From a virus, in IMG/VR virus record IMGVR_UViG_3300023178_000017, positions 41,280 to 105,279 of that record: a stretch of 64,000 nt of DNA; one strand, given 5' to 3'. The position numbers were made by a program, and so were the translations under genes. Of the stretch, positions 36,110-44,980 are shown in pieces. Numbering within the stretch: position 1 is the first letter of the stretch; every line of letters begins with the position of its first letter. The notes under the pieces were generated by a model. It ran no database searches, was not told where the DNA came from, and worked only from the letters and a program-made list of their open reading frames with translations.

Positions 36110-36708
36110 AGAAGCTTTACGTTTTTGATTTAGACGGCGTCTTAATCGATTCTCTACCAAATATGAAACTATCGTGGGGTATTGTACAATTAAACCACAG
36201 AATAGAAATTCAATTCGAAGAATATGCCAAACATATTGGTAAACCATTTAATGATATACTAGAAGAAATTGGTATACACCATGATCACGTTAGTATTAAA
36301 AAGACTTACGATGAAATGTCTAACACTATGTTAGATAAAATAGAAATATATCCAAAAACATTCGAAGTATTAGAAGAACTAAAAAACAGAGGTTGTAAGA
36401 TTGCAATCTGCACATCTAAAGATGGCGTTAGAGCAAAAACAGTATTAGAGTCATTAGGATTTCCTGAGTTTGACTTTATCTGTTCACCTAAAAAAGGCCT
36501 CAGAGGAAAACCTTCTCCTGATCAACTACTAAATACTATTGCATTTTGTAATATCGATCCCAAAGATACAGTTTACATCGGCGATATGCAAAGTGATTGC
36601 GAATGTGCTCAGAGAGCAGGCGTAGATTTTATACATGCAAATTATGGATATGGACAAGTGAAATGCGAAGTCTCAGTGAACCAAATAGAACAACTCCTCT
36701 CACTGTAG
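36106..36708 (+). CDS. HAD-family phosphatase
   Basis: 200 aa. Motif I FDLDGVLIDS (Asp8, Asp10), motif II ICTSKDG, motif III KGLRGKPSP and motif IV YIGDMQSDC show a class-I HAD hydrolase with a small helical cap (residues ~20-75), as in phosphoglycolate-phosphatase-like enzymes. The cap makes it different from the capless KdsC. It overlaps gp4 upstream and the KdsB gene downstream, suggesting that it supplies or edits a sugar phosphate for the same pathway; the substrate is unknown. Confidence 0.8.
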   Translation: MKKLYVFDLDGVLIDSLPNMKLSWGIVQLNHRIEIQFEEYAKHIGKPFNDILEEIGIHHDHVSIKKTYDEMSNTMLDKIEIYPKTFEVLEELKNRGCKIAICTSKDGVRAKTVLESLGFPEFDFICSPKKGLRGKPSPDQLLNTIAFCNIDPKDTVYIGDMQSDCECAQRAGVDFIHANYGYGQVKCEVSVNQIEQLLSL

Positions 36709-37415
36709 GGTTTATACCTGCAAGGTGGCACTCGACTCGTTTTGAGGGTAAACCTCTAGCACTCATCAATGGCGTACCAATGATTCAAAGAGTCTTTGAT
36801 CGGGCTTGCATGTCAAAAAGACTTGACACTATTGTTGTACTAACAGACGATGAACGTATTAGTCAATACTGTTCAATCAAAGGTATTCGTTGTATCGTTG
36901 TTAATGAAGAATGCAAGACTGGTACAGACAGGTGTTCAAAAGTCTTAGAGTTAGTAGACGGTACACATTTTGTAAATATACAAGGTGATGAACCTTTGAT
37001 CAATCCAGATGCGATTGATAAATTAATAGACTCACACGATGACAATATTGGAGTAACAAATGCTTATGTCGAAGTTAAAGATGATTACAAACTTCACGAT
37101 AGAAACGTTGTTAAGACTGTTCTTGGTCTTAATGATACTGCCATTTATTACTCTCGCTATGGTATACCGTTTACTCAAAAAGTAGAAGTGCCATTCAATC
37201 AACAACTAGGACTGTATATGTTCAGTAGAGAAAAATTGGAAATGTTTCCAAAATTGAAAGTTGGTCCATTAGAAAGTGCTGAATCTGTAGAGATGTTAAG
37301 ATTCTTAGAAAATGGTTATGATGTAAAAATGGTCAAAGTCGATGATGAGGGTTTATCAGTAGACACACCAGAAGATTTAACAAGAGTGGAGAAATTTATA
37401 AATGCGTTTAATTGA
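36663..37415 (+). CDS. kdsB: CMP-Kdo synthetase (KdsB), 3-deoxy-manno-octulosonate cytidylyltransferase
   Basis: 250 aa from ATG 36663, matching the usual ~248. Motifs in order: G-F-I-P-A-R-W-H-S-T-R-F-E-G-K-P-L (nucleotide binding), VVLTDDERI, V-N-I-Q-G-D-E-P-L-I, YYSRYGIPF, and G-L-S-V-D-T-P-E-D-L near the end. A longer frame reaches back to 36597, but this start gives normal length and places I-P-A-R close to the N-terminus. It would activate Kdo or a related keto sugar as CMP-sugar. It overlaps the HAD gene by 46 bases and the next gene by 14. Confidence 0.85.
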   Translation: MRSLSEPNRTTPLTVGFIPARWHSTRFEGKPLALINGVPMIQRVFDRACMSKRLDTIVVLTDDERISQYCSIKGIRCIVVNEECKTGTDRCSKVLELVDGTHFVNIQGDEPLINPDAIDKLIDSHDDNIGVTNAYVEVKDDYKLHDRNVVKTVLGLNDTAIYYSRYGIPFTQKVEVPFNQQLGLYMFSREKLEMFPKLKVGPLESAESVEMLRFLENGYDVKMVKVDDEGLSVDTPEDLTRVEKFINAFN

Positions 37416-38271
37416 TGATGTAGTAGAAACAGGTATTAGCAAACACGAGAAGTTTAAACACTTCTTTTTAGCTAACGATGATCAACAAGGAACTATTCTT
37501 AATGAAATGAAAGAATGTTTCGAATGGATTTGTGAAAACAGACGTAAACCATATCTAACAACTTATGGTGAACTTAAAGATAAACATCTGGTTGGTGCAG
37601 GTAATTATAACTACAGTCATTTAGTAGACTACGCTACTTATCTAATTAAGGGTATCGTATCAGACGTACCTAATTTAACAAAAGAAAACGGTCACTTGTT
37701 AGAAGGAGAATTCTACAATCACTTCTATCATGCTTGTAAGATATCTTGGTTGATCAGCCAAGAACGAACAGTAGGTCTTTACTCAACATTACAAAGTAAA
37801 ATGACAAAAGAAAACCAAATCTTTTTCCATCCAGGTATGTCACGTGTTCATGCTTATTTACAAATGGAAGCATTAGACAAAAAGGTCATCGTTTGGGACA
37901 ATTACAACAAATTTGATACTGAACCTTTATCATTCGATCAATGGATGGATGTGTTCTCTAATACGCAACGTGATAAGTTTGGTGCAAATGTTGATGGTGA
38001 AATTTTAGAAATGCATGTAGGCGAAGAAAGAAGCGATCTTATCGCAACGATGTCATCGATGAGAGATATGTACAAAAGAGAGTTGCCTGTTTTGAAAGGC
38101 AAGTGTGATGATGAAATAACAGAATACTTTAGAACAGAAGGAGAAGGCGTAACCGTAGAAACGAAGAACGATTACGTATTTCAGAAGCAAGATTTGAGAT
38201 ACTTCTTAGAGTTATTTCCAGCAACACAACATATCGTAGAACATGAGTCGTTTACCATCAGAAGAGATTAG
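37402..38271 (+). CDS. Unknown protein, tandem paralogue A
   Basis: 289 aa, unrecognised. It shares with the next protein, in the same order: F-F-H-P-G-M-S-R-V-H-A (here ~residues 138-148), K-V-I-V-W-D-N, a phrase E-M-H-V-G-E-E, D-M-Y-K-R-E-L-P-V-L-K-G, and the C-terminal QKQDLRYFLELFPATQHIVE. The H-P-G-x-x-R-x-x-A motif faintly recalls ParB-like cores, but I do not assign that. It overlaps kdsB by 14 bases and paralogue B by 29, so it belongs to the same operon; a role in sugar transfer or surface modification is possible but unproven. Confidence 0.7.
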   Translation: MRLIDDVVETGISKHEKFKHFFLANDDQQGTILNEMKECFEWICENRRKPYLTTYGELKDKHLVGAGNYNYSHLVDYATYLIKGIVSDVPNLTKENGHLLEGEFYNHFYHACKISWLISQERTVGLYSTLQSKMTKENQIFFHPGMSRVHAYLQMEALDKKVIVWDNYNKFDTEPLSFDQWMDVFSNTQRDKFGANVDGEILEMHVGEERSDLIATMSSMRDMYKRELPVLKGKCDDEITEYFRTEGEGVTVETKNDYVFQKQDLRYFLELFPATQHIVEHESFTIRRD

Positions 38272-39085
38272 AACTGACTATCATATTCATGATGTCGACC
38301 TAGAAGAAGCATTTTACAATTGTATCAGTGTACCAAGACTCTGTACTTATAGAGATTTAAGTGATTGGGGATTTGGTATAAGAGATTACACTGATCATAA
38401 TCTATGTTTATTTGTCGAAGCACTTCTACGAGACATAGAAAACGAATGGGAACCTGGCGATCTCATATCCGCAAAACAAAATCAGACCAAAGCATTTCAC
38501 GCACTTAAGATCGGTTATCTAATTAACGAAATAAAGACAACTGGACTCTATTCGCCTATTCAAGGGTTGTACAAACGGCCTTTTACGCACTTCAAAGCAC
38601 CTAAGTTGCCATCAACACAAGGAATTTACATACATCCAGGAACTGCTCGAGTATATGCAATCCGGCAGACACGTAAGTTTGACGAACCTGTGATCATTTG
38701 GGATAATACAGGTGAATTTTCACGTTTTAAAGAGTTAAATTTCAATGAATGGTTGAGTATGTTTAAAACGGAAAGTCTAGCAAGAAATATTTCTAATATT
38801 ATCATCGAAATGCACGCTGATGAGTCAATTAGGGGTATTTTAGACACTTCCAAAGAAATTCGAGACTCCTATTTGCGTTCCAAGCCGATCCTTAGGGGTG
38901 ACGTGAGATATAACATTCGTGAATTATTCGACCTCTCAGGCGAGACAGGAGGCGTTGTAGTCGAAACAAAGGGTACATACGTCTTTAGTTTTGAAGATTT
39001 ACGTTACTTTTTAGAATTACACCCCCAAAACAATAGAATAATAGACACGGAAAATTTTACGATCAGCATAAATAATAGCAAATGA
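38243..39085 (+). CDS. Unknown protein, tandem paralogue B
   Basis: 280 aa, homologous along its length to the preceding protein: I-H-P-G-T-A-R-V-Y-A, P-V-I-I-W-D-N, I-E-M-H-A-D-E, D-S-Y-L-R-S-K-P-I-L-R-G, F-E-D-L-R-Y-F-L-E-L-H-P. N-terminal ~90 residues are diverged, the rest conserved. The two together look like an old tandem duplication, perhaps making a heterodimer. No signal peptide, no membrane segment. It overlaps the next gene by 4 bases. Confidence 0.7.
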   Translation: MSRLPSEEIRTDYHIHDVDLEEAFYNCISVPRLCTYRDLSDWGFGIRDYTDHNLCLFVEALLRDIENEWEPGDLISAKQNQTKAFHALKIGYLINEIKTTGLYSPIQGLYKRPFTHFKAPKLPSTQGIYIHPGTARVYAIRQTRKFDEPVIIWDNTGEFSRFKELNFNEWLSMFKTESLARNISNIIIEMHADESIRGILDTSKEIRDSYLRSKPILRGDVRYNIRELFDLSGETGGVVVETKGTYVFSFEDLRYFLELHPQNNRIIDTENFTISINNSK

Positions 39086-39686: not shown

Positions 39687-40433
39687 ATGGCAGAAGATTA
39701 CAATGTAGACAAATACGGAGAAACCGTAACTACAGCTAAGAAACGAAGAAAACAAAGAGAAGAATTAAACATAGATCGTCTTAGATTTAATTTTGATCAA
39801 GGTGCTAGATCAAATAGATTTCTTGTAAATCTATTTTTACCTGAAAAATTATCAGGTTTTAAGTTCGAAGGTATTAGATGTATCAGCGCCACATTGCCTG
39901 GTAGAACATTAGAAACAACAGAGTTTTCAGAATATGGCGCAACAAGAAAGATGCCATTTCAAACACAACATGACGAAGCTACATTTACATTTTTATGTGA
40001 CTCAACGTTTGCAGATAGATTTATAATAGATGCTTGGCAATCCATAGTCTACACAGGTTCAGAAAGTACAGGCAATTCTGCAATGCCTATTTTCTCTTAC
40101 TATAATGATTATGTTGGCCAAGTAGAAATTACACAATTAACAAGAAAAGGAGATAGTGCTTTAAAATATACATTGTACGAAGCATATCCCGTAGCATTTG
40201 CAGCTCAAGAATTATCTTGGGAATCTACAGATGAAATTATGAAATTTGAATGCACTATTGCTTACAGAACGTTTGATGTTTCATATGAAAAACCGTCAAA
40301 CGTTAGCGGTCTAAATAGAGGAATAAGAGGCATTAGTGCTTTAAGAGATTTACTCGGAGTTTTTGGTAATAAGAGTAAGACTTTAAATAGATTTGAAAAT
40401 AGACTGAGAGACTTAAGTGGTCTCTTTGGTTAA
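39687..40433 (+). CDS. Tail tube / baseplate tube initiator, gp54/gp19 family
   Basis: 248 aa. The tube-fold signature is visible: R-S-N-R-F-L-V-N-L-F, then F-E-G-I-R-C-I-S-A-T-L-P-G-R-T-L-E-T, and R-F-I-I-D-A-W-Q-S-I-V-Y. It is longer than T4 gp19 (163 aa) and shorter than gp54 (320). The extra C-terminal ~45 basic residues and the neighbouring gp26-type gene favour the gp54 initiator, partner of gp48. The ordinary gp19 tube gene would then be outside the window. Confidence 0.65.
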   Translation: MAEDYNVDKYGETVTTAKKRRKQREELNIDRLRFNFDQGARSNRFLVNLFLPEKLSGFKFEGIRCISATLPGRTLETTEFSEYGATRKMPFQTQHDEATFTFLCDSTFADRFIIDAWQSIVYTGSESTGNSAMPIFSYYNDYVGQVEITQLTRKGDSALKYTLYEAYPVAFAAQELSWESTDEIMKFECTIAYRTFDVSYEKPSNVSGLNRGIRGISALRDLLGVFGNKSKTLNRFENRLRDLSGLFG

Positions 40434-40447
40434 TTAGGAGATAAATT

Positions 40448-41155
40448 ATGGAATTACCAATACAGGCGGCGCCTAAGTTTACGACTACACTGCCTATTAG
40501 TCAACAAGAAGTGACTTACAGACCATTTCTTGTTAAAGAACAAAGAAATTTGTTATTGGCAAAAGAAAGTGATAGTCAAAAAGAAATATTTAAGGCGCTA
40601 GAAGGAATAGTTACATCTGTTTCAGACGGTTCTGTTGATGTCAAAGAGTTAACAACAACAGATATAGAATATTTGTTTTTACAAATAAGAACAAAGTCTA
40701 TCGGTGAAACGGCTAGTGTAACATTCAATTGTGTAGAAGATGAATGCGATGGCGAGATACCATCAAAGTTAAATCTTTTAGACGTAGAAGTTGTAGGCAA
40801 CTACAAGGCAGAAGATAGAGTTCAACTCACAGAAGAATTGTTTGTTGATTTAAAATATCCATCTGCCCAGCAGTTAATCGACATCACTGATACAAAAGAT
40901 GAAGAACTGCAAAACAAAAAAATGATGAGGATGTCCATGAGACGAATTATCGACAGCGAGAATGTTTATGAATTAGATGAATATCCTGATTCAGAAATAG
41001 ACAAGTTTGTAGATAGTTTAACTGTAGACCAATTTAGTAAAATTACTAAATTCTATGAAGACATTCCAACATTGTCGCTTACAACAAAAACTGTCTGCCC
41101 TAAATGTAAGGATGAAAGAGTTAGACAGATTAAAGGCTTACAGAATTTTTTTTAG
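40448..41155 (+). CDS. 26: gp26/gp51-type baseplate hub assembly protein
   Basis: 235 aa. Belongs to the T4 baseplate-protein family: LPISQQEVTYRPFLVKEQRN, then a Zn-type site with V-E-D-E-C-D-G-E-I-P and a terminal CPKCKDERVRQ. Expected to act in baseplate hub assembly. TTAGGAG precedes the ATG. The last sense codons are AAT TTT TTT, then TAG, inside a run of eight T (41146-41153). The -1 frame stays open for 66 more codons with a coherent protein sequence, so a fusion product of ~300 residues is likely (see the extension entry). Confidence 0.8.
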   Translation: MELPIQAAPKFTTTLPISQQEVTYRPFLVKEQRNLLLAKESDSQKEIFKALEGIVTSVSDGSVDVKELTTTDIEYLFLQIRTKSIGETASVTFNCVEDECDGEIPSKLNLLDVEVVGNYKAEDRVQLTEELFVDLKYPSAQQLIDITDTKDEELQNKKMMRMSMRRIIDSENVYELDEYPDSEIDKFVDSLTVDQFSKITKFYEDIPTLSLTTKTVCPKCKDERVRQIKGLQNFF

Positions 41156-41190
41156 TAGCCCTTTCACATGATAACTTTATAAGTTATTAT
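41146..41190 (+). promoter_or_regulatory. Candidate -1 ribosomal frameshift signal
   Basis: T_TTT_TTT heptamer at 41146-41152 in the zero frame, immediately followed by the TAG stop. A 10-bp stem (41168-41177 with 41181-41190, one G-U pair, 3-nt loop) starts 15 nt downstream. This arrangement matches a canonical X_XXY_YYZ slip site with a stimulatory hairpin. The spacer is longer than the usual 5-9 nt. Confidence 0.6.
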
Positions 41191-41352
41191 AAAACAAACT
41201 TTACTTTGATGCAGTATCATAAGTACAGTTTAACAGAACTTGAGAATATGATTCCATGGGAAAGGGAAATTTACCTAAATCTTCTGAAAGAACACATTGA
41301 AAAAGAAAACGAGAGAATGAGACAGGCGAATAGTAAACGTAAAAGGAATTAA
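41152..41352 (+). CDS. -1 frame extension of the gp26-type protein
   Basis: 66 codons open from the slip site to TAA at 41350-41352, reading LVALSHDNFISYYKTNFTLM, then Y-S-L-T-E-L-E-N-M-I-P-W-E-R-E-I-Y-L-N-L-L-K and a basic end. It has no good start of its own (first ATG at 41209, no clear ribosome site) and fills the whole gap up to the next gene, one base away. The amphipathic helical character resembles C-terminal halves of tail assembly chaperones made by frameshifting. A homopolymer sequencing error in a single long gene is the alternative. Confidence 0.7.
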   Translation, partial: LVALSHDNFISYYKTNFTLMQYHKYSLTELENMIPWEREIYLNLLKEHIEKENERMRQANSKRKRN

Positions 41353-41353
41353 A

Positions 41354-41737
41354 ATGAGCGAAGTAGACAACAGAAACGAAGTCAACATTGATCTCGAAAA
41401 GTATACTGATCTAATGTTAAAGTTAGATGATGCTAACGACAAGATCAAAGAAATGGAAGAGATAACCAAAGACCTCAAAAAGGCAGCTATCGAAGCAAAG
41501 CCTAAAGAGAAGTTTTCACTTGGTGCTCTTTTCATGGATGACAATGCAATTAACGAAAAATCAATTATAGGTTTCATATCATTTGCAATGATGGTTGCTT
41601 TTGGTATTGTTGACCTAATCACAGGTCTTAATGGCGTAGACTTAGTAATATCAGACACAATCTACACATCATTTGTTGTGGTAACATTAGGGTCATTTGG
41701 TATTGCAGAAGCTGGTAAAGCATTCGGGAAGCAATAA
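41354..41737 (+). CDS. Two-helix membrane protein, holin candidate
   Basis: 127 aa. Residues ~15-50 form a charged coiled coil (LDDANDKIKEMEEITKDLKK). Residues ~74-92 (IIGFISFAMMVAFGIVDLIT) and ~103-120 (TIYTSFVVVTLGSFGIAEAG) are two membrane helices. Such size and topology fit class II holins. It follows gp26 and precedes the tape-measure candidate, not the endolysin, so a tail-injection membrane role is equally possible. Confidence 0.6.
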   Translation: MSEVDNRNEVNIDLEKYTDLMLKLDDANDKIKEMEEITKDLKKAAIEAKPKEKFSLGALFMDDNAINEKSIIGFISFAMMVAFGIVDLITGLNGVDLVISDTIYTSFVVVTLGSFGIAEAGKAFGKQ

Positions 41738-41740
41738 TAA

Positions 41741-43822
41741 ATGGCGACATTAGCATTACCAAATCCAAATCCTGGTGGCGGAAAAACATCTAAAGCATTA
41801 CCTGTTACAATCATAGATGCTGAATTCACAGTAGTCAATGAAAAAAATGGTAAAAATGGTAAGAAAACAGATGATACCAACACCGTAAAAAATCAGAAAG
41901 AATTCTTTAAGAACTTCCAAGAAACTATGAAGAAGGCGTTTGAGCCTTTTAAAGAAGGTACTGATCAAATTAAGGGTGGTGTTAATGAATTGTTTGGCGG
42001 AGGCGGTGCTATGTTTACACCTCTGAAAATGTTGTTCGATAAACTCAAAGCAGTCTTTGATATTATAATGGGTCTTGGCAAGATTCTTGCAGTTCCTTTA
42101 AAAGCTATCTTTAAAAAGAAAGACAAAGATGATGATAAGAAACGTAAGAAAGAAAAGAAAAAAGACATAAAGGATAAAGACAAAAAAGACGCTAAAGCAA
42201 GAGGCGGATTATTAGGTGGTATTGGTCGTTTACTATTGCCAATTCTAGGTTGGGGTCTGTTACTTGGTGCTTTAGTTCTTGGAATCATGGCGTTGTGGAA
42301 CTATTTTAAGAAAGGTGAGTTTGTCACTGGTCTTAGAAACATGGGTTACAATATTTCTATTGGTATAGCTAAAGTTTTTGGTAAAGACGAGCTCGTTGAA
42401 CAACTTCAACAAGAACAGATAGCAATGAATTTATCGTCTAACAAGTACATGGATGATGTTGGTGAATATCTAAAAACAACAGCGAAAACCAATCTCGAAA
42501 CAATGAAACGAACAGGAGCATCCGAAGAAGAAATTAAGGCTGCAGAAGAAAGACTTCGTAAAGGTGAGTATACAGATGAAGAAATGTTATTTGGTTTAAA
42601 AGAAGCTTTTGATAAATTGGCAAGAGATGGTATTATAGGTCCTGAAGAACTTGAAAAGTATAGAAAGAATATGTTCGCAGACGAAAGAACAGGAGTCATT
42701 GGCGATGTCATCACAAGAGAATATGATCCAGAAGGACAAGTTTTAAGAGCAACAGAAGAGGTAGTCGATAGAATTAATGAACAACAATTAGACTCTAGTA
42801 CCGAGATTGGCAAACAAAATGTTGAAAATATCAGTAAAGTTATAGAAGAATCTAAGATAGATAATGTAGATGTTGAGGCCAGAAATATTGATGACAATTT
42901 AATTATGCCTGATACTTTTGATGGTTATTTAACTCTATCAAATCCAGATGGTTCACCAGTAACAGAAGACCAGTTCTTAAACGATGCATCTTTCGACAAA
43001 TATCAAGCTCTTAGATATAGCACTGGTTATCAAGTTGGAGCAGATGGCAATGTAATGATTCCAATACACGATCAAACTTTCTCAGTGGCAGCAAATGACA
43101 ACAATCTTGGAATGTTCACAGGCGCAGGTGATCTTAGTTCACCATTTGAAAAAGTAGAAGGTGGTGGATTTAGAATTAAAACTGTTGAAGAATTGGCGGA
43201 AAACCTTGGTACTCAAAATATGAATCTGTCACTTATGTCCGCAAATAGTTCACCATATGGTGGTTTTGGTATGAGTAGTTTAGATGATGAATCTGACGAA
43301 TCGAAACTAAGGAGAGCACAACAAATTATTGACAGGGCTGAAGCACAAATAGACAAACAAATAATGGATAGCGTTAATCTCCAATCATATGAAGGTGCTG
43401 TTGAACTTACACCTGATCCAGATACGACATATGGTGAAGGTGTATTTGCAGCATGGCAAGAAGAGGCAGATGCTTTGGGTCCTCAATTCTTAACTATGTT
43501 GAAAGATATGCAAAACTTTAATGATTGGTATGCAAAAAATGGTGATGCATGGGATTGGACAACCTCAACAGACGAACAAGGAGAATTTGATAGTTTTAAA
43601 GATTCTCAAAGAGAAATTAATGACACTATAGAATCAATTGCAGCTAATACAGGCATAACCATAGAGGAATTATATGAAGCTCTAGGAAATTACGCTTCTG
43701 CTAATGATATTAATGCTACTAGCGTTATTCAAACTAATAATACCAATTACTCTCAAGGTGAATACGGCAATAGAGTTTCACACTTGAATTCTGCCTTATT
43801 TCCCAAAACAGCTAGTGATTAA
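41741..43822 (+). CDS. Probable tail tape measure / hub protein (gp29 position)
   Basis: 693 aa. Residues ~85-130 are amphipathic, residues ~130-155 a Lys/Asp-rich stretch (KKKDKDDDKKRKKEKKKDIK), and ~165-190 a membrane-type helix (LLPILGWGLLLGALVLGIMA). The remainder is helical and acidic (KLRRAQQIIDRAEAQIDKQI). A hydrophobic helix inside a long helical protein is typical of tape measures. It follows the frameshifted gp26 gene, the place where tape measures usually follow the chaperone. T4 gp29 is 590 aa. Its stop overlaps the stop of the minus-strand gene at TTAA, leaving no room for a terminator. Confidence 0.5.
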   Translation: MATLALPNPNPGGGKTSKALPVTIIDAEFTVVNEKNGKNGKKTDDTNTVKNQKEFFKNFQETMKKAFEPFKEGTDQIKGGVNELFGGGGAMFTPLKMLFDKLKAVFDIIMGLGKILAVPLKAIFKKKDKDDDKKRKKEKKKDIKDKDKKDAKARGGLLGGIGRLLLPILGWGLLLGALVLGIMALWNYFKKGEFVTGLRNMGYNISIGIAKVFGKDELVEQLQQEQIAMNLSSNKYMDDVGEYLKTTAKTNLETMKRTGASEEEIKAAEERLRKGEYTDEEMLFGLKEAFDKLARDGIIGPEELEKYRKNMFADERTGVIGDVITREYDPEGQVLRATEEVVDRINEQQLDSSTEIGKQNVENISKVIEESKIDNVDVEARNIDDNLIMPDTFDGYLTLSNPDGSPVTEDQFLNDASFDKYQALRYSTGYQVGADGNVMIPIHDQTFSVAANDNNLGMFTGAGDLSSPFEKVEGGGFRIKTVEELAENLGTQNMNLSLMSANSSPYGGFGMSSLDDESDESKLRRAQQIIDRAEAQIDKQIMDSVNLQSYEGAVELTPDPDTTYGEGVFAAWQEEADALGPQFLTMLKDMQNFNDWYAKNGDAWDWTTSTDEQGEFDSFKDSQREINDTIESIAANTGITIEELYEALGNYASANDINATSVIQTNNTNYSQGEYGNRVSHLNSALFPKTASD

Positions 43823-43986
43823 TCTTTATATTTCTGTTTTCTAGGAATTACCTTAGTCTTATCTTTATGAACTTGGGTCTTGCCATGATCTGGCGTTACC
43901 TTACGAGTGAAGATATTATCCCACGCCTGAGCAAACTGATCGTTTGAAATGACCTGTGGTCTTCTTTTACTACCTTTTCCCGACAT
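43819..43986 (-). CDS. Small conserved marine-phage protein (MSGKGSKRRP)
   Basis: 55 aa from ATG 43986; an in-frame ATG five codons earlier is less likely because the family starts MSGKGSKRRP. It contains I-S-N-D-Q-F-A-Q-A-W-D-N-I-F and a Lys-rich tail. Short proteins with this start are common in T4-like cyanophages and pelagiphages; function unknown. Highly basic, so nucleic-acid binding is possible. It overlaps the GAPDH gene by 17 bases. Confidence 0.75.
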   Translation of the reverse strand: MSGKGSKRRPQVISNDQFAQAWDNIFTRKVTPDHGKTQVHKDKTKVIPRKQKYKD

Positions 43987-44980
43987 GTCGCACCAAATCA
44001 ATTAAACGATTGGCAAATGCCCACTCGTTATCGTACCATGCAACAAGTCTAAAGGTTCTTGAATCTAAGAACTGAGTTTGATTCCAATCAACGATACATG
44101 ATCTCGTATCATGGTTGTAGTCTGAACTAACTAGTGGTTCTTCTGATAATCCAAAGAACTCAGGACATTGCACTTCTCTTAATCTGAGATTATCTCTAAT
44201 CTCTGCCTTTGTTGTAGGTCGTTCTGTTCTAAATGTAAAGTCTAACATAGAAACGTTCTGTACAGGTACACGTGTTGCAAATCCTGTAAGTTTGCCTTCT
44301 AAATGTGGTAGTATCTTAGCAACTGTTTCAGCTGCACCTGTTTTTGTAGGTATGATATTGTTTGCACCTGATCTTGCTCGATACTTATCTTTATGGTGAG
44401 AGTCTACTATAACTTGGTCGTTGGTGTATGCATGAACTGTATTCATAAAACCATGTTCAAGTCCAAATGTCTCATCAATGATATCTGCTAACCATGATAT
44501 ACAGTTTGTAGTACATGATGCATTAGAGAAGACTCTATCGGTGTCTTCGATTGTTTTGTGATTGATACCATAGACAATGGTCTTGTCTACGTTAGAAGCA
44601 GGTTGTGCTATGATTGTTTGCCATGGCATATTTCGAAACCGATCTCCGTCTGTAAATGCACCTGTACATTCTATAAGTACATCACAATTCCATGGTACAA
44701 GACTAGGGTTTCTTTTAGAGTGATACTCAATGTTTAAATGATTTGAATTAGCAACAGGATAATTCTTATCTTGTATTCTAAAACCACCTTCAGGCAATGC
44801 AAAGACATCTTTGTTAAATCTACCGTGTGTAGAATCGTACTTAAGTAAATGTATATTGGAATGTATATCACCTAAATCATTTACTTGACAAACTTCTACG
44901 TCATAATCATTTCTCTCGTAGATCGCCCTTAGGACGTTTCTACCTATTCGACCGAATCCATTTATACCTACTCTAATCAT
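43970..44980 (-). CDS. gap: Glyceraldehyde-3-phosphate dehydrogenase (GAPDH-family)
   Basis: 336 aa, full length. NAD-binding G-I-N-G-F-G-R-I-G-R (residues 6-15), Asp35 of V-N-D-L favouring NAD, catalytic Cys156 in SNASCTTNC, His183 in T-V-H-A-Y-T-N-D-Q, IIPTKTGAAETV, R-V-P-V-Q-N-V-S, and W-Y-D-N-E-W. Every key residue of active GAPDH is present. Erythrose-4-phosphate dehydrogenase (Epd) is a close alternative that I cannot exclude. As a phage enzyme it would shift host glycolysis/gluconeogenesis or feed cofactor synthesis. Start ATG forms ATGA with the stop of the 28-aa ORF upstream. Confidence 0.92.
   Translation of the reverse strand: MIRVGINGFGRIGRNVLRAIYERNDYDVEVCQVNDLGDIHSNIHLLKYDSTHGRFNKDVFALPEGGFRIQDKNYPVANSNHLNIEYHSKRNPSLVPWNCDVLIECTGAFTDGDRFRNMPWQTIIAQPASNVDKTIVYGINHKTIEDTDRVFSNASCTTNCISWLADIIDETFGLEHGFMNTVHAYTNDQVIVDSHHKDKYRARSGANNIIPTKTGAAETVAKILPHLEGKLTGFATRVPVQNVSMLDFTFRTERPTTKAEIRDNLRLREVQCPEFFGLSEEPLVSSDYNHDTRSCIVDWNQTQFLDSRTFRLVAWYDNEWAFANRLIDLVRHVGKR

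Follow-up and report, generated by a model that had tools for sequence, protein, structure and literature searches.

The question that this locus raises is whether a single gp26-like gene of a marine T4-like phage, lying in the window (by which the whole 64,000-nucleotide stretch of DNA that was analysed is meant, positions 41,280 to 105,279 of the IMG/VR record IMGVR_UViG_3300023178_000017), gives rise to one protein or to two. The gene ends in ATT AAA GGC TTA CAG AAT TTT TTT TAG, and an earlier sequence-only reading had noted a zero frame closing on T_TTT_TTT and then TAG, a -1 frame staying open for a further 66 codons and, as the explanation, a programmed -1 frameshift producing a pair of proteins like G and G-T of phage lambda. 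The first two are there as described, with eight T's at 41146-41153, the stop codon at 41153-41155 and the -1 frame open from the TTA at 41152 to the TAA at 41350-41352, whereas the third, being an interpretation, is strongly supported by comparative evidence: one gp26 gene very probably encodes both a short and a long tail assembly chaperone by way of -1 ribosomal frameshifting. The features on which the argument draws are the following.

39687-40433, plus strand: tail-tube-fold protein of the gp19 type (tube or tube-initiator), directly 5' of gp26 (PF06841, E 1.7e-6; phrog_45, E 2.5e-34).
40448-41155, plus strand: gp26-like short form (putative "G-like" tail assembly chaperone), 235 aa, TAG at 41153-41155 (PF12322, E 5.3e-54 in a Pfam scan; phrog_150, E 3.7e-55 in a PHROG search; AlphaFold2 model).
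41132-41137, plus strand: Shine-Dalgarno-like AAAGGC, ending 8 nt 5' of the heptamer (position conserved in 98 loci).
41146-41152, plus strand: slippery heptamer T_TTT_TTT in the zero-frame register (T_TTT_TTN in 98 of 98 main-set loci).
41152-41352, plus strand: -1 frame extension, 66 codons and a TAA, the counterpart of both cyanophage "gp51" and the T4 gp51 C-terminus (phrog_634; tblastn; -1 frame in 82 of 82 relatives).
41168-41190, plus strand: 10-bp AU-rich hairpin, 15 nt 3' of the heptamer (fold prediction; possible accessory element only).
41741-43822, plus strand: long ORF of 693 aa in the tape-measure position (position and hydropathy only).

The gene order is thus tube-fold gene, chaperone, 127-aa ORF and 693-aa ORF, the tape-measure identity of the last resting on its position and on the hydrophobic segments that hydropathy places near residues 102-125 and 157-190; no homologue of this ORF was found in named phages. 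A small correction concerns the location "upstream of the tape measure" given by the sequence-only reading: the gene that comes next (41354-41737, 127 aa) is not the tape measure, the ORF in that position beginning at 41741. This 127-aa ORF, which adjoins the -1 extension, has hydrophobic stretches and no convincing family match, and both the window and seven close relatives (L025, L026, L028, L029, L037, L044 and L046) have an ORF of 126-130 aa in this place. Further out, the translation of 43970-44980 (minus strand) resembles a phage-encoded glyceraldehyde-3-phosphate dehydrogenase (MIRVGINGFGRIGRNVLRAIYE...), the ORF at 36597-37415 looks by eye like a 3-deoxy-manno-octulosonate cytidylyltransferase (sugar nucleotide synthesis), and the adjacent, overlapping genes at 37402-38271 and 38243-39085 encode products that look paralogous (sharing an HPG..RV...VIWDN motif) and for which neither Pfam nor PHROG gave a notable match.

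The -1 frame beyond the slip site is both coding and conserved. Its 66-aa translation (LVALSHDNF...KRKRN) hits phrog_634 (gp51, "baseplate hub assembly catalyst") with an E value of 3.6e-27, and also the C-terminal end of phrog_150, while a Pfam scan of the extension gave matches at chance level only. Searching with the extension by tblastn retrieved 634 phage records, mostly from cyanophages, in which the matches adjoin or overlap gp26, and in many records the extension is either annotated as a separate "gp51" gene or carries no annotation whatsoever (the deposited genomes L010, L011, L021, L022 and L107, for instance, leave it unannotated, with a gap of ~170-180 bases after gp26). Codon positions 1/2/3 of the -1 frame carry 4869/2573/9777 substitutions, which is the pattern of a translated gene, and the mean column identity of the extension is 57%. 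The predicted long form, read across the junction (...NFFLVALSHDNF...), would be 301 aa long.

Relatives of the locus were gathered by an N-terminal protein motif, that is, blind to the slip site (L004 and L005 came from a separate search), and the extension profile was scored in all three frames at each locus. At 82 of 82 IMG/VR loci it is the -1 frame that holds the extension, with an in-register T_TTT_TT(T/C/A) 0-8 codons ahead of the gp26 stop, and the window shows the same frame relation and slip-site pattern, as do 15 named phages, among them members of Kyanoviridae, Otagovirus, Chrysonvirus, Schizotequatrovirus, Menderavirus and Pootjesviridae, as well as Pelagibacter phage Mosig and Xanthomonas X1. 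Aeromonas P19 and Vibrio 6E35.1a share it too, so that 17 of the 18 named one-gene phages checked keep the pattern. The exception, Vibrio phage D504 (L023, 4540-4795), has a single gp26 copy lacking the canonical heptamer (TCA CTT TTC AAG TAATG) and a -1 ORF that scores insignificantly against the extension profile, though it looks related by eye; this phage may use reinitiation or have lost the long form. The heptamer of the window is of the X_XXY_YYZ type, sits in the zero-frame register inside the overlap of both frames and belongs to the sole run of exactly eight T's within the window. NNT TTT TTN occurs in 98/98 loci, as against 138 of the 795 FF dipeptides of those loci having a TTT preceded by T, and these 98 loci are related by descent, their counts not being independent events. 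The arrangement that the sequence-only reading named as speaking against a frameshift, homologues with both parts in one frame and no slip site, is found only in T4-type phages, which encode the long form in a second gene, gp51.

As to what might stimulate the shift, a purine run resembling a Shine-Dalgarno sequence occupies positions -14 to -9 relative to the heptamer across the 98 loci, and its predicted pairing with the anti-Shine-Dalgarno sequence reaches -4 kcal/mol or lower in up to about 85% of the loci, compared with 5% of background positions (the window's own element, AAAGG, is weak, at -3.2 kcal/mol). The GG of the run is fixed by an invariant glycine, yet synonymous codon choices lean towards a Shine-Dalgarno-like sequence: the codon before the glycine (E/Q/K) ends in G in 50 of 83 cases (23 expected), and the glycine codon is GGA or GGG at 61 of 98 loci (38 expected). 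The 10-bp hairpin that had been noticed 15 nt downstream does exist, but it is not conserved and is probably not an important stimulator. In the window it is no more than mildly better than shuffles (z -1.8 for the 70 nt as a whole); no common downstream structure was found by RNAalifold in sets of 93, 69 and 24 loci (0 kcal/mol each), and in eight close relatives it gave only -0.7 kcal/mol, results that speak against the hairpin as a conserved stimulator. Compared with a control region, downstream regions as a whole are somewhat more prone to fold (mean z -1.4 vs -0.4). The candidate for a conserved stimulator is probably the upstream Shine-Dalgarno-like element rather than the downstream hairpin.

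Both T4 gp26 and T4 gp51 belong to PF12322 (8.8e-64 and 3.9e-52, respectively), phrog_150 aligns to T4 gp26 up to residue 235 and to T4 gp51 up to residue 280 of 282, in T4, RB49, AS-gz and IT22 it is the C-terminus of gp51, and not gp26, that the extension profile matches, and the fused window protein aligns with T4-type gp51 as a single, co-linear tblastn piece (query 24-282) that spans the junction. T4 gp26 thus corresponds to the short form, and T4 gp51 to the frameshifted long form. PF12322 is present in two copies in T4 and RB49, and in a single copy in the record of the window and in 15 others (Vibrio D504 included), and the end of T4 gp26, G-L-K-E-F-F, is coded GAG TTC TTT GAG over its last residues, with the FF retained and the slip site lost. 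Cyanophage gp51 has been described as ~20% of the length of the others and as lacking the first ~200 aa (Sullivan et al. 2010, PMC3037559), a "missing" portion that is explained if this gp51 is the tail of a frameshifted gp26. A T4 review counts gp26 and gp51 among the hub assembly chaperones, and also mentions some evidence that gp26 is present in the hub (PMC3004832).

AlphaFold2 modelled gp26 with confidence (pLDDT 91.5) and the extension as helical (pLDDT 82.7); Foldseek of the gp26 model against the PDB gave nothing at E <= 0.001, no solved tail assembly chaperone being matched, a PDB sequence search for the known chaperone fold found no match, and against BFVD it matched nothing but models of T4-type gp26/gp51 and of other phage proteins. 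With no fold match in the PDB, the protein is to be regarded as a member of the T4-like family, short of a demonstrated homology to lambda G; what assigns its function is T4 genetics, the order of the genes and the architecture of two forms, and not the fold.

The sequence of events would then be as follows: most ribosomes would terminate at the TAG at 41153-41155, giving the 235-aa short form, whereas a minority would slip back by one base at U_UUU_UUU (41146-41152), both tRNA-Phe re-pairing, and read on through 41352, giving the 301-aa long form, whose C-terminal domain is all-helical. If lambda G and G-T are a guide, coating of the tape measure protein would fall to the short form and recruitment of tube subunits to the tail of the long form, and neither form would stay in the virion. 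The sequences themselves show the slip site, the homology of the -1 frame with its conservation and coding selection, and that the long form is equivalent to T4 gp51; the frameshifting itself, its efficiency, the binding partners and the chaperone function are what we infer.

Both products could also come from slippage of the transcribing polymerase at the T run, which would yield a mixture of mRNAs. RNA polymerase slippage begins near runs of about eight T's, and the eight of the window are near that length; 60 of the 98 loci, however, have only six T's followed by C, and as most homologues share so short a run, this explanation is very unlikely. The fixed codon register, besides, fits tandem tRNA-Phe slippage, and a Shine-Dalgarno-like element acts on ribosomes, not on polymerase. 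A slimmer chance still is to be given to gp51 being a small gene of its own, translated by termination-reinitiation or from its own start, even though several cyanophage records annotate it in that manner and an ATG overlaps the gp26 stop in some lineages (e.g., TGATG/TAATG in L015-L017, L019 and L023): at 51 of 98 loci the -1 frame offers no ATG, GTG or TTG as far as codon 6 past the slip site, the first such codon of the window being the TTG at 41206, inside the conserved domain, and the protein conservation starts 5' of such start codons. A separate gp51 would likewise leave unexplained both the invariant NNT TTT TTN and the gp26-like domain fused ahead in T4 gp51, and for most lineages an independent or reinitiated gp51 is rejected. 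An error in the T run (a true seven or nine, which would make gp26 and gp51 one continuous gene) is rejected as vanishingly improbable, prone to error though homopolymers are, since three IMG/VR contigs from other metagenomes (L001-L003) carry the identical eight T's, which disfavours a random sequencing error, the frame relation holds in all 82 divergent relatives and in 17 named phages although their run lengths differ, and many relatives have an extra zero-frame sense codon ahead of the stop.

With ribosomal frameshifting as the preferred reading, the tiny "gp51" of cyanophages and marine T4-like phages is very probably the tail of a frameshifted gp26 and not a gene of its own, and several hundred genomes call for re-annotation. 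The "hub assembly catalyst" gp51 of T4 acquires a concrete reading, that of a long chaperone form, and the two separate genes of T4 make the short-to-long ratio in tail assembly testable. A broader picture, to which we would give even chances, is that the T4-like shift is driven mainly by the conserved Shine-Dalgarno-like element some 10 nt ahead of a U_UUU_UUN site (a dnaX-like cassette) and not by a downstream hairpin, and that the one-gene state is ancestral, the T4-type lineages having duplicated gp26 into gp26 and gp51 and lost the slip site.

The earlier statement that no such case had been described for T4-like gp26 is out of date, as Vladimirov, Gautam and Davidson are said to have identified the T4-like tail assembly chaperone genes in 2022 (Virology, 566:9-15). 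In lambda, where the G and G-T pair was reportedly worked out by Xu, Hendrix and Duda in 2004, there is likewise a short form and a -1 frameshifted long form encoded ahead of the tape measure gene; the heptamer of lambda is G_GGA_AAG, as opposed to the poly-T heptamer and upstream Shine-Dalgarno-like element of the window. In E. coli dnaX, an internal Shine-Dalgarno-like element ~10 nt upstream stimulates a -1 shift at A_AAA_AAG, together with a strong downstream stem; the window and its relatives have such an element at a similar spacing, and differ in lacking a conserved downstream stem. The element may be a new detail for the T4-like phages, and an earlier report of it is possible. The core of the finding is already published, going by the passages in which two later papers credit Vladimirov et al. 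2022 with polyT slip sites in the TAC-N genes of T4-like phages (PMC12846349, the Adele paper) and with T4-like phages that have one short and one fused long gene (PMC10885494, PRFect). The TAC locus of phage Adele (Vandenendeviridae / Andersonviridae) resembles that of the window in its conserved -1 shift at a T-rich motif and in the misannotation of the downstream ORF as a separate gene, and differs in its slip motif, GTTTTT, and in belonging to other phage families (PMC12846349). The T4-like chaperones themselves are also close in kind: T4, RB49, AS-gz and IT22 have two divergently oriented genes where the window has one gene and a slip site; the proteins are of the same family (PF12322 / phrog_150), and the short and long forms correspond to T4 gp26 and gp51.
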